Shown here: one piece after another, positions 37,335 through 42,270 of the stretch
How the letters are laid out: each line of letters opens with the position of its first letter
Numbering within the stretch: the first letter of the stretch is position 1
Assembly: GCF_030273315.1 (NCBI RefSeq)
Contig: NZ_CP127174.1
Span: 744,001 to 808,000 of the forward strand
Length of the DNA: 64,000 nt
From: Natrialbaceae archaeon AArc-T1-2
Lineage (GTDB): Archaea; Halobacteriota; Halobacteria; Halobacteriales; Natrialbaceae
Direction of reading: 5' to 3'
Position numbers and translations under genes: made by a program
Notes under the pieces: model-generated
Told to the model about the DNA's origin: nothing
The model's input: the letters and a program-made list of their open reading frames with translations, nothing else
The model's database searches: none

Positions 37335-39143
37335 TCACCGCTTTGTGTGCAGTCCGAGCATCGCAGCGGCGAGCATTGCGACGAGGGCGACGGCGACGCC
37401 GAATCCGGGCATCGCCTCCTCTTTCGTTTCGTCGGCCGCTTCGGTATCGGCTTTCTCGTCGTCGTAGTCGTTCGTGGCCTCGTCTTTCTTATCGTCTTTC
37501 TCGGCCTCGTCTTTCTTATCGTCTTTCTCGGCCTCGTCTTTCTTATCGTCTCGTTCGTCGTCGATCGACCCCTCTTCGACTGCCGTCGCCTCACTCGAGG
37601 CGATCTGGACGTTCTCGTTTTCCTGTATAGTCATCTGGAACGCGGAGGCGTTACCGTCGTCCTCGGCGACTGCGAGCGCGTTGTTCGAGTTCTGGTTCAC
37701 CTGCGTCACGTCCTGGCTCTGTTCGATCTCCGCGGTCGAGTACTGATCGACGTCGTTGAGCTGGTCGTTGTCGCCGTCGTAGTCGAAGGTGGTCCGGTCG
37801 GCGTCCTCGACGCCGTCACCGCCGATCGTCGCGCTCGTCGTTTCGGTCAGCACGGCTCCATCGTAGTCGTATCCGTCCTCGTACTCGCAGTCGTCGGTCG
37901 CGTCCTCGAAGAAGACGTTCAGCGCCTCGGCGGAGCCGACCTGCGCGTTGACGTTCTGCTGGAAGGTCAGCTGGATCGCTTCGGCCTCGCTGCCGTTCGT
38001 AGCGATCGCCGTGGCCGAACTGTTGAGTTCGACGTTCAGCTGCTCGGCGCTTTGGTACTGCGTGACGCTGGCCTCGGCAGTCTGGCTCACGTCACCGTCG
38101 TGGGGATCGTCGTCGTTCTTGTCCGTTGGCTTGGGATACTCCGTGCTATCCTGGTCCACGACGTCGGTGCCGCCGTCGGTGTTCGCGGTCGCGACGTTCA
38201 TCCCAGCGGCGTCCATCAGGACGTTCATCGCTTCGGCCGTGCCGATCTGTTCGTTGAGGTTCGACTGTTCGGCGATCTGGGCAGCCGTCGCAACGGAGTC
38301 TTCACCCACCGCGATCGCGACTGCGCTTCCGTCGAAGGAGTTCACCTGGTCGACTTCCTGAATCTGTTCGACGTCTGCGTCGGCCGATTGCTGGGCGTTC
38401 GGGCGGTCGTCGTCGCCTTTCTTGTGCTCGTCGTATCGGTCCGTCTCCCCGTCCTCGAGGTCGCTGGCGTAAACGTTCGTCGCGTTCGCCGAGCCCTCCT
38501 GGAGGTTCAGGTTGGACTGTTGGGTCTGTTGCAGCGCATTCGCCGTACTCTCGTTTTCGGCGAGCGCAAACGCGGTGGTGTTCTGGTTGACGTTCGCCTG
38601 GCTCACGTCCTGCGTCTGGGAGACAGCCGCTTCGGCGGCCTGGGTGACCGTCGAGTCACCGTCGTCGACGATTCCCCAGCCGTCGAACTGCTTGTCGGAG
38701 CCGTTGCCCACGACCACGTAGACGTTACCGACGTCCTCGAACGTCGTCTCGTGGTTCTCCGCGGTGGCGTCAGCTTCCTGTACGTTGTCATTTTGCTGGG
38801 CCACGTCCTGGATGGCCGTCGCATCACCGCCATCGATCGAGATGGCGACGGCTTGACCCTGTTCGTGGACGTTCACCTGGCTAACGTCCTGGTACTGGAC
38901 GACCTCCGCGTTCGCGTCGTCGCTCGGGTTGTCGTCTGCGTACTTCTCGATGTATTCCTCGAGACTCTCGTCGTCGAAGTCGGCACCGAACGAGAGGTAG
39001 AGATCCTCTCCGTTCTCCATCGCGTGTACGTCGCTCGTCGGAGCTGTACCGTCGTTCGCGCCGGCGGGGATGGCCATCCCGGTCATAGCGATGGCCACCA
39101 TCGCGGCGACGAGAACCGTCGTGAATCGTATGCTACGTTTCAT
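37335..39143 (-). CDS. Q/N-rich five-repeat surface protein with PGF-CTERM anchor
   Basis: The product has 602 residues. It has a signal peptide (FTTVLVAAMVAIAMTGMAIP) cleaved near residue 29, and five repeats of about 50 residues. Each repeat has the pattern QxQDVxQxNxN, AxA..., then AxQxxxQxNxNxQxGxAxA, for example VSQTQDVSQANVNQN and QQTQQSNLNLQEGSANA. The spacers between repeats are acidic. Near the end is a lysine/aspartate region (EKDDKKDEA repeated), then the PGF-CTERM motif MPGFGV, a helix, and basic residues HTKR, which archaeosortase would process. The regular Q/N ladder resembles curlin-type beta-solenoid repeats, so a surface fibre or adhesin is likely by inference. It is divergent from a small secreted protein with the same motif. 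Confidence 0.72.
   Translation of the reverse strand: MKRSIRFTTVLVAAMVAIAMTGMAIPAGANDGTAPTSDVHAMENGEDLYLSFGADFDDESLEEYIEKYADDNPSDDANAEVVQYQDVSQVNVHEQGQAVAISIDGGDATAIQDVAQQNDNVQEADATAENHETTFEDVGNVYVVVGNGSDKQFDGWGIVDDGDSTVTQAAEAAVSQTQDVSQANVNQNTTAFALAENESTANALQQTQQSNLNLQEGSANATNVYASDLEDGETDRYDEHKKGDDDRPNAQQSADADVEQIQEVDQVNSFDGSAVAIAVGEDSVATAAQIAEQSNLNEQIGTAEAMNVLMDAAGMNVATANTDGGTDVVDQDSTEYPKPTDKNDDDPHDGDVSQTAEASVTQYQSAEQLNVELNSSATAIATNGSEAEAIQLTFQQNVNAQVGSAEALNVFFEDATDDCEYEDGYDYDGAVLTETTSATIGGDGVEDADRTTFDYDGDNDQLNDVDQYSTAEIEQSQDVTQVNQNSNNALAVAEDDGNASAFQMTIQENENVQIASSEATAVEEGSIDDERDDKKDEAEKDDKKDEAEKDDKKDEATNDYDDEKADTEAADETKEEAMPGFGVAVALVAMLAAAMLGLHTKR
37476..37550. repeat. 27-bp tandem repeat, 2.8 copies, in the surface-protein gene
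   Basis: The unit GGCCTCGTCTTTCTTATCG... (27 bp) repeats without change and encodes EKDDKKDEA in the C-terminal linker. Perfect identity suggests recent expansion, and copy number may vary between strains. Confidence 0.8.
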
Positions 39144-39736
39144 GTGTTTGTCGCAACAGCATTGATACGACCCGTGAGAGTCGCCGATTGCTGAACGTCT
39201 GCGACGCGAACCGGTCTATTTCGATGACCGTCTTTGTTATCTGGAAGCTGCCATGAGCAACAAGACGACACACGTATCGGCTACCGAACTGGACAAAAGC
39301 CTTCGAATACAGAATATATACAAATATTTGTTCTCTTGAATAAATCAGAGCGTTGAGACAGCGAGATCGTCGTTGCAGGGAACACAACGGTTGCAGGTGC
39401 GACAACAGCAGTATGCCTTCGCCGACGTGTAAACCCGCGCTCGAGCCCGTATAGCCGTCGCACAGACAGCTGTCATCCATCCCGACGTACGCTCTGAGAG
39501 CACGGGCTAGAATGTGACTACCCACAGTTTAGTATACAGAACAGTCGACGGAAGCTGAAACGGCACAAGTCTCAGTTTGAATGAGTGATCTACGATAACG
39601 AAACCGAGGATATAGTTAGTGGAACGGTATTTTGGCTATATCATCCCCTCTGTTGTGACGAGAACCTGGGCAACGCGTCGGGGATCGCCGATTTCCCTGC
39701 TCCCGGGCGCACAACCGTGCCCACCGAGTGACAACT
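39144..39736. promoter_or_regulatory. Long divergent intergenic region between the two Q/N-repeat protein genes
   Basis: These 593 bp are much AT-richer than average, especially 39295-39350 (AATATATACAAATATTTG lies within it). No convincing gene is found on either strand. It must hold the promoters of both exported-protein genes. Its length and composition suggest complex regulation; no known binding site can be named. Confidence 0.5.
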
Positions 39737-40165
39737 ATGAAACGCACACTCACGATCACGTTGACAATGGCGTTGATTGGCGGCCTCATGTTCATGGGGT
39801 TTGCCGGAACGGCAGCTGCACAGGATGTAAGTATCGACGCCAGTCAAGAGACCGGCGATGCAACGAACAACGCCGAGGTGAGCCAAGAGAATAACAATGC
39901 TCAGGTCGGTATCAGCGGTGCGTTCGCTGCAGGGGACGCGGCCGATAACAACGATCACAAGAAAGACTACTACAACGACGACAACAACGACGGCGACGGC
40001 GTGTCTGCCACCGCCAGCGTCGACCAGACACAAGACGTCGCTCAGGGTAACGAGGCTAACGTAGACCAGACTGCCGAAACTGGTGACGCCGCTGTCGGCG
40101 ACATCACTATTGATCTCGGCGAAGAGCCCGTCGACGATAACGACGATAACAATAACGAAGAGTAA
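39737..40165 (+). CDS. Small secreted Q/N-rich protein related to the five-repeat protein
   Basis: The product has 142 residues. Its signal peptide (LTMALIGGLMFMGFAGTAAA) is cleaved near residue 28. The mature part has NNAEVSQENNNAQVGISGAF and ATASVDQTQDVAQGNEANVD, the same QxQDVxQxN pattern as the 602-residue protein across the divergent promoter. A very acidic, Asn-rich centre and tail (DDNNNDGDG-like) surround them. No membrane anchor is present, so it is probably released or attached through the larger protein. A minor-subunit or nucleator role is a guess from the arrangement. Confidence 0.68.
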   Translation: MKRTLTITLTMALIGGLMFMGFAGTAAAQDVSIDASQETGDATNNAEVSQENNNAQVGISGAFAAGDAADNNDHKKDYYNDDNNDGDGVSATASVDQTQDVAQGNEANVDQTAETGDAAVGDITIDLGEEPVDDNDDNNNEE

Positions 40166-40320: not shown

Positions 40321-40758
40321 ATGAATCGACTGGCAGTGACGGGAATCGTACTGGTCGTCTGTCTGCTCGTCGTGGCCACCACCGGTGTCGCCGACAGCGT
40401 CGTCGACGATCCGAACGACTCGAGCGGATCTCTCGGCGACTGTGAAGAGAGCCTCGAGACCACGAGCGATGATACCATCGCCGTGAACGTCTCCGTCGAC
40501 GCGGACGACCACCTCGAGTGTCACGTGACCGAGAACGAATCCCCGTCCGAAATCGCCGTCCACTCCGGCGACCCGGACGAGTCTCGGAGTACGACCGTGA
40601 GCGTCGATGCCCACACCGAAAGCGAACACCGCAGTGTCTCGAGCGTACAGAACGTGACGTCGAACGTTTCGGTACACACCCACGCAGAGAGCGCCGAGGG
40701 TGACGAGATCGACGTTGACGTCGACGTCGGCGATGGCGATCCCGGTTCGGACGAGTGA
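40321..40758 (+). CDS. Secreted acidic protein of unknown function
   Basis: The product has 145 residues. A signal peptide (AVTGIVLVVCLLVVATTGVA) is followed by an acidic, Ser/Thr-rich mature part with alternating beta-like patterns (DDTIAVNVSVDADDHLE, STTVSVDAHTESEH, NVTSNVSVHTHAESAEGDE). Several N-x-S/T sequons (NVS, NES, NVT, NVS) suggest N-glycosylation. It follows the small Q/N protein on the same strand by 155 bp. No family recognised. Confidence 0.55.
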   Translation: MNRLAVTGIVLVVCLLVVATTGVADSVVDDPNDSSGSLGDCEESLETTSDDTIAVNVSVDADDHLECHVTENESPSEIAVHSGDPDESRSTTVSVDAHTESEHRSVSSVQNVTSNVSVHTHAESAEGDEIDVDVDVGDGDPGSDE

Positions 40759-40902: not shown

Positions 40903-42030
40903 TCAGTCGTCTTTCTTCCCGCACGAGCGGTCGTCGGCTTTTTTCTTCTCGTCTTTCTTGCGGCGAGTCCGGGTTTTTTCCGTTCGCTTTCGCTTTCGTT
41001 TCTTTTTCTTCGGCCTCGGCTTGACACACGGCGCATCGACCGCCTCGACGAACATGTCGAATATTTCCGTTTCCTCGAACGTCACGACGAGATGGGCCGG
41101 ATCTCGATCTCCTGGGAGGTCGACGACTGCAACGCCGTCCGCATCGACATCGGGCAGGAACGTTAACACGGTATCATCCGCGAACGTAACTGTCACGTTC
41201 AGCGTCGATCCCGGGTCGATGTTCTCGGTTTCGATCGTGATCCTGTCACAGGTGACCTTGAAGTCGACCACCGCTGGCTGGAGTCCACACGGAGCGTCCT
41301 TCGCCATCACGCCCGCATCGAACAGGATCATACCTAGATACTCGATCCGAACCCATATCGGATCAACATCGCCGGGCAGCCCGACTGTTGCCAGTCCGTC
41401 TTCGTCGACCGTTGGCGTGTAGAGCTCAGTGCTCCCGTCCGCAAACGTTACCGTCACGGCTAGCTCGGTTCCTGCGGGGATGTTTGCGGTCTCGATGGTG
41501 ATGAAATCGCACGTAACCTTCACGACGTTGGCAGTCGGTGGATCCTCGCCTTCACACGAGTAGAACGTCGCGTTACTGATGTCCTGTAACCGCTCCGGAT
41601 TCCCCTCCGCGTCTTGTGTCAAACGGAACGTAACGTCCCCGCTCGGTGCAGCAGGCACCTCCGCGAGGAAGCAGTTCGGACCCGCCTTGAGAGTCAGATA
41701 GTCGGCACCGGCCGGAATCTCCGCCGCCGGAATCGTGAAATCGATCCCGTCAAAGTAGTCGGGTTGGTCGTCCGTATTGAACAACGGGTCCAGCGCAACT
41801 GGCCCTTCACAGACCGCCGCGACACAGTTGATACACTGTCCCGCCTGTCCGCCTGGTGGGCTAACCGGTGGCAGGCTGGCCTCGCCACAGAACGTCGCCG
41901 GAATCGGATCGTTTTCCTGCGCGAATGCACTCACGGGAAGGCCGGCCAACCCGGCGATACCGATGCCCGCTGCAGTTCCTTTCAAGGCCCTTCTTCGAGT
42001 AATGTTCTCTGTCGGATTACTGTCTTCCAT
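40903..42030 (-). CDS. Tat-exported beta-repeat protein with a strongly basic tail
   Basis: The product has 375 residues from ATG 42030 (MEDSNPTENITRRRALKGTA). It has a twin-arginine signal peptide (TRRRALKGTAAGIGIAGLAG). The mature protein has cysteines early (CINCVAAVC) and two clear repeats of about 82 residues, each with VTCD-ITIET-N, VTVTFAD, V-LPGD-DP and DAPC. The C-terminus KPRPKKKKRKRKRTEKTR and the following KK-rich stretch are extremely basic, in contrast to the acidic proteome. The tail could bind nucleic acids or acidic surface polymers. Function unknown; the neighbourhood is rich in exported proteins. Confidence 0.6.
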   Translation of the reverse strand: MEDSNPTENITRRRALKGTAAGIGIAGLAGLPVSAFAQENDPIPATFCGEASLPPVSPPGGQAGQCINCVAAVCEGPVALDPLFNTDDQPDYFDGIDFTIPAAEIPAGADYLTLKAGPNCFLAEVPAAPSGDVTFRLTQDAEGNPERLQDISNATFYSCEGEDPPTANVVKVTCDFITIETANIPAGTELAVTVTFADGSTELYTPTVDEDGLATVGLPGDVDPIWVRIEYLGMILFDAGVMAKDAPCGLQPAVVDFKVTCDRITIETENIDPGSTLNVTVTFADDTVLTFLPDVDADGVAVVDLPGDRDPAHLVVTFEETEIFDMFVEAVDAPCVKPRPKKKKRKRKRTEKTRTRRKKDEKKKADDRSCGKKDD

Positions 42031-42270
42031 CTGCAACCGTTCGGATTCCAGTACTGGCATTTGTTATTCGGCAACTGGACCGCGTGGTCTCGGCGTAGAC
42101 GGTGGCTTCCTTGATCCCGTTCGCGATCCGCTCGAGAACGGTCCGGTTACCCGGATTTCGAGATCCGTCGGTCGAAGTGAAACGCGTCCGTACGGTGTCC
42201 GGTCGAAAGCGGCCGTTTCGCAACGGTAGCGATAGATGTCGACGACGACGCGAGTTCGTCTCGCGGTCCG

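Follow-up and report, generated by a model that had tools for sequence, protein, structure and literature searches.

The window analysed here is a 64,000-nucleotide stretch of DNA from Natrialbaceae archaeon AArc-T1-2 (NZ_CP127174.1, positions 744,001-808,000), in which positions 37335-40165 carry two divergently oriented genes, one for a large exported repeat protein and one for a small secreted protein (Table 1). The sequence between the two ORFs has a GC content of 51.6% compared with 63.4% over the whole window, and an earlier note on this DNA, made from the sequence alone, had placed both ORFs and the AT-rich divergent region correctly. In most of the relatives that were read in detail, the pair is flanked by what we take to be genes for a CDC48-type ATPase and a LarC-like protein on one side, and a RadB-like protein and a CBS-domain gene on the other. 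The flanking gene at 40321-40758 has just two matches in the loci of relatives, both marginal (E about 4e-4 and 6e-4), and for this reason it is not counted as part of the system. Further along, at 40903-42060 on the minus strand, the window encodes a 385-residue protein that carries a Tat-type signal, has weak matches of the Ig-like/Rib type and possesses a long tail rich in Lys and Arg, which is unusual in an acidic halophile proteome.

Table 1. Positions in the window of the two genes, the parts of their products and the region between them.
Feature	Position	Strand	Basis
Large Q/N-ladder repeat protein, 602 aa	37335-39143	-	ORF including stop; 99 of the 125 family genomes have a homolog
PGF-CTERM anchor, residues 576-602	37338-37418	-	TIGR04126, 32.4 bits (cut-off 24.5)
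Acidic Asp/Lys-rich linker, residues 524-575	37419-37574	-	Present in anchored relatives (alignment)
Repeat 5, residues 467-523	37575-37745	-	Motifs at 475 and 503; strands predicted
Repeat 4, residues 354-410	37914-38084	-	Motifs at 362 and 391; strands predicted
Repeat 3, residues 252-308	38220-38390	-	Motifs at 260 and 289; strands predicted
Repeat 2, residues 168-224	38472-38642	-	Motifs at 176 and 205; strands predicted
Repeat 1, residues 75-131	38751-38921	-	Q.Q...Q.N at 83, Q...Q.N.N.Q at 112; strands predicted
N-terminal export signal, residues 1-29	39057-39143	-	Hydrophobic segment with PAGA end; type conserved across homologs
Divergent intergenic region, 593 bp	39144-39736		51.6% GC; blocks adjoining both start codons kept among relatives
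Conserved leader of small gene	39661-39739	+	Covariance model match, 35.8 bits, E 3.5e-10 (window copy among the 19 model sequences); arm pairing against controls in relatives
Complementary leader arms TGGGCA / TGCCCA	39667-39672 / 39718-39723	+	Pairing of the arms in relatives, compared with controls
Small secreted Q/N protein, 142 aa	39737-40165	+	ORF including stop; 95 of the 125 family genomes have a relative
Export signal of small protein, MKRTLTITLTMALIGGLMFMGFAGTAAA	39737-39820	+	Best conserved part of small family (alignments)
B half of repeat unit, residues 30-60	39824-39916	+	Unit profile match
A half of repeat unit, residues 90-106	40004-40054	+	Unit profile match

Distribution, linkage and conserved noncoding blocks

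The earlier note had staked its proposal on the two genes travelling together, and across the family they do: 94 of 125 Natrialbaceae genomes hold both, five the large gene alone, one the small gene alone and 25 neither (Fisher p about 3e-20, uncorrected for kinship). Two of the five genomes with the large gene alone are incomplete, and the lone case of the small gene by itself is a weak match. Of the 51 loci taken from named genomes, 38 have a small gene as divergent neighbour of the large one, across a gap of 505-1143 bp, and small genes are present in one to four tandem copies. The locus is largely fixed apart from two relatives, G011 (L053, L071) and G021 (L065, L070), where about 27 kb with sugar-nucleotide and glycosyl-transfer-like genes splits the pair. 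Large homologs extend beyond the Natrialbaceae to Haladaptatus, Halomicrococcus and Halalkalicoccus, and a search of phage records returned no homologs. Where homologs are annotated (these are plasmid-borne), their RefSeq names are hypothetical or PGF-CTERM protein.

Most small genes, tandem copies included, are preceded by a conserved leader that starts YGGGCAACGCGYCACA and is closed, shortly 5' of the start codon, by a near complement of that start. The complementary ends (GGGCAACGCGYCACA ... TGTGATGCGTGCC) are seen in the window and upstream of small genes in L051-L126. Mean pairing of the arms was -21.5 kcal/mol in the native combination, -19.1 with arms swapped between species and -13.6 after shuffling, and over 0.95 Mb the covariance model matched upstream of small genes and at only a few weak places elsewhere. 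Run on the organism's own genome it gave no convincing further site, with a first filter that dropped the known one as well. Covariation within the stem is weak, with three pairs showing two-sided changes and 100 of 500 shuffles scoring equally high, because the arms are so conserved. This pattern suggests that the leader likely acts as an RNA hairpin, with a DNA operator as a live alternative; Rfam models run over the intergenic region gave sub-threshold chance matches only. A second conserved noncoding block, GATAACAAAG.C.GTCATCG..., lies upstream of the large gene at about 39150-39260 of the window and is found family-wide.

Repeat architecture of the large protein and its small partner

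The large protein contains exactly five matches to Q.Q...Q.N and five to A.Q...Q.N.N.Q, and both halves are present in each repeat. When its core was shuffled 20,000 times, the two motifs occurred on average 0.037 and 0.0004 times and at most 2 times and once, respectively. Its Q and N residues recur with a period of two (autocorrelation 0.76-fold at lag 1, 2.16-fold at lag 2, 0.77-fold at lag 3 and 1.92-fold at lag 4), an alternation that would be expected if Q, N and A made up one conserved face of a beta strand. The consensus of 245 units, taken from the large window protein together with its 51 homologs, spans 57 residues (Q.a.A.v.Q.Q.V.Q.N.NeQ..A.AiA.dgseAtA.Q.s.Q.N.N.Q.g.A.A.n), in which a short turn joins two alternating stretches. 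In alignments of 19 and 51 homologs, whose mean column identities are 48% and 37%, nearly all invariant columns are Q, N, A or G, and five units were detected in 42 of the 52 large proteins. The repeats match no Pfam family above its curated cut-off. Three N-glycosylation sequon positions are filled in about two thirds of the homologs, with a total number of sequons not above that given by composition.

An AlphaFold2 model of the large protein, built with the 51-sequence alignment, places two beta strands of 15-26 residues in every repeat, ten in all, with pLDDT of about 75-89 on most strands, a mean of 61.7 and a pTM of 0.56; the linkers between repeats are modelled at low confidence. The repeats would thus be neither helical nor disordered, either of which the earlier note had regarded as fatal to its proposal, and long paired strands are predicted instead. 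Its expectation of a beta-solenoid fared less evenly, as a beta-repeat protein is indeed predicted, whereas a canonical curli-like solenoid finds no support in strands of this length and in a fold search with no significant match. At a pTM of 0.56 for the model as a whole, the strands may stack as hairpins or make up a wide solenoid with two sides. Foldseek searches with the model, comparison with a viral fold library, and PDB sequence searches with the single protein and with a profile gave no significant match. Structure prediction for the small protein was uninformative (pLDDT 53).

Relationship between the small protein and the repeats was assessed with a unit profile made from large-protein repeats alone and run on 64 mature small proteins. 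The mature part of the small window protein scores 17.3 bits, compared with 1.7 for the best of 50 shuffles. Across the family, 41 of the 64 exceed 10 bits, a level reached by 0.03% of shuffles matched for composition, and 52 outscore all 50 of their own shuffles; in the reversed-sequence control, three of 64 also pass 10 bits. The small window protein carries the B half followed by the A half, which reverses the order in the large protein, whereas some small relatives, L083 for example, have one unit in normal order. The claim that the 142-residue protein has the same pattern as the large one therefore stands in that the profile finds one unit in it, and falls short in that the likeness is weaker, with a single Q.Q...Q.N and no complete second half. 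The mature part of the small family is poorly conserved and much of the family similarity resides in the signal peptide. In a few proteins of the small-family clusters the signal peptide is common and the domain different; in L112:2558-3622, L113:4272-5336 and L090:5294-5971 the domain that follows it is unrelated and partly duplicated (DTITFYNDDGGELEQLAQATW).

The C-terminus of the large window protein has what makes up a PGF-CTERM anchor, namely the PGF motif, a transmembrane helix and a basic end, is matched by a second profile as well (PF18204, 20.1 against a cut-off of 18.8), and is accompanied in the same genome by archaeosortase A (TIGR04125, 330 bits). The earlier description of a 602-residue exported protein with five strict Q/N-ladder repeats and this anchor is thus borne out by the ORF, the shuffles and TIGR04126. 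This anchor, also present in a few relatives, is that of the surface proteins processed by archaeosortase A, though it is a sorting tag rather than a function and is absent from most large homologs. Among the 51 homologs from named loci, five end in PGF-CTERM, two in a PGL variant and about 35 directly after the last repeat. With most large homologs free of a membrane anchor, surface attachment is not general, and the proposed layout of an anchored base with a free subunit fails as a rule for the family: it can hold just for the minority, about eight of 52 large proteins, to which the window species belongs. In a Natronococcus/Halalkalicoccus group, the large homologs have Tat-like N-termini, and their tails are basic or mixed. 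A second large subfamily (L117, L119-L122, L125) has tails that are mostly lysine-rich or mixed and no adjoining divergent small gene; where read, its N-terminus is Tat-like (RRGYLKGLAATG in L117; RRGYLSGLAASG in L064, which shares a contig with L125).

A candidate two-component extracellular assembly

Our preferred reading, to which we assign a probability of roughly 0.45, is that the pair encodes an undescribed two-component extracellular assembly of the Natrialbaceae, in which beta-repeat proteins form a surface or matrix fibre. Based on the model, each 57-residue unit would fold as two strands of about 20 residues with a short turn between them. The conserved Q/N/A face would point inward and stack on the like face of the next unit through ladders of side-chain amides. 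The five-unit protein would serve as scaffold or nucleus, which in the window species PGF-CTERM would keep at the membrane. The one-unit protein, supplied from one to four gene copies, would be exported separately and would join open beta edges, either on the scaffold or on other copies of itself, to build a fibre or a matrix sheet. Haloarchaea have a single membrane, and hence no dedicated outer-membrane secretion pore would be needed. In its more specific and more tentative form, this assembly would be a functional amyloid with cross-beta structure, the first in haloarchaea, in which a five-unit nucleating scaffold and tandemly encoded one-unit subunits arose independently of curli and use Q/N strands of about 20 residues in saturated salt.

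To our knowledge, there is no well-supported fibre gene for haloarchaeal biofilms that stain for amyloid, and the large/small pair provides a concrete, testable and family-wide gene set with which to address this question. If the pair assembles, Q/N-ladder fibres would have been invented independently in a domain characterised by a single membrane and molar salt, and the pair would offer a natural comparison through which the features of curli needed for stacking could be separated from those needed for secretion.

A somewhat less probable explanation is that the large protein stays monomeric and acts, at the surface or in the medium, as a rigid stalk or adhesin built of beta repeats, with the small proteins as soluble ligands or competitors and the ladder stabilising the fold without any polymer. 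The prevalence of five units resembles a defined fold more than an open polymer, and an acidic linker followed by PGF-CTERM is the ordinary layout of a haloarchaeal surface protein; what such a stalk leaves unexplained is a partner with one copy of the large protein's own unit, its tandem multiplication and the co-inheritance of the two genes. We consider it distinctly unlikely that the small protein acts as cap or chaperone to the large one, in a role comparable to CsgC or CsgE, and guards against premature assembly rather than entering the fibre. A single unit could bind and block an open beta edge, and the divergent linkage suggests co-regulation, yet a gene in tandem copies that have conserved leaders of their own would be more in keeping with a structural subunit than with a helper, and the mature sequence diverges faster than would suit a dedicated chaperone.

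Relationship to curli and other extracellular assemblies

The fibre reading took its cue from the regularly spaced Q and N of curli, and likenesses to CsgA and CsgB are apparent: both systems have exported (here predicted) beta-repeat proteins whose spaced Q and N could stack as ladders, and more than one subunit gene, with a many-repeat protein and a related partner. They differ in several respects. Window repeats span 57 residues with predicted strands of 15-26, while curli has repeats of about 23 residues with 7-residue motifs, and the conserved face is Q/N/A rather than the curlin motif N-x-psi-x-psi-x-Q (as defined in PMC10192328). That motif is absent from the core of the large window protein (0 counted, 0.8 expected), and the large homologs are depleted of it (10 against 43.7); in the small family it is little above expectation (19 against 13.3), with 2 against 0.17 in the window small protein alone. 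The curlin family PF07012 matched neither window protein, none of the 51 large homologs and nothing in the organism's own genome. CsgG (PF03783) likewise had no match in the genome, and it is not expected in single-membrane haloarchaea.

The same archaeal family does hold genuine curlin-repeat proteins. L127-L130, which come from a single Natrialbaceae genus (genomes G057, G058, G059 and G061), score above the Pfam cut-off for PF07012 and consist of frames of 230-268 codons with a signal peptide followed by 19-residue repeats such as NNDADVDQRNKAFVDQDGK; L127, with 22 motifs, was the positive control for the motif counts. They resemble the window family in their signal peptide and short, Q/N-rich repeats and differ in that these are 19-residue curlin motifs, encoded by a separate gene family present in four genomes alongside the window family. 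Their detection indicates that the method would have found curlin repeats in the window pair. Membership in curli is rejected on the PF07012 searches, the motif counts, the missing CsgG and the lack of a sequence or significant fold match; the pair may work like curli and is not a member of it. A true archaeal curli, with the pair as divergent CsgA and CsgB, is accordingly very improbable, in spite of its Q/N ladder, repeat subunits and divergent genes and of CsgA (8c50) being the single PDB entry returned at E up to 10, a hit without evidence value (E 9.2, TM 0.04); the curlin proteins of this very family look different. Chance regularity and spurious likeness in acidic, Q/N-rich halophile sequence, as the low complexity of both proteins and the part of the signal peptide in defining the small family might suggest, are refuted by the shuffle controls and by Q/N positions invariant over 51 homologs, and such an artefact can be practically dismissed.

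Consistent with the view that this is not a described haloarchaeal system, we found no paper in the library searched that links functional amyloid to haloarchaea and none that describes this family. One passage in the literature mentions a single archaeal protein with curli-like repeats (PMC3521004). Archaeal extracellular amyloid-like assemblies that bear comparison are the sheath protein of Methanospirillum hungatei, which is amyloid-like (PMC10593813), and the putative amyloid of Haloferax volcanii biofilms, which is known by dye staining only and for which HVO_1403 was proposed as a possible gene (PMC4180959). They differ from the window pair in being a methanogen sheath in the one case and a staining property in the other.
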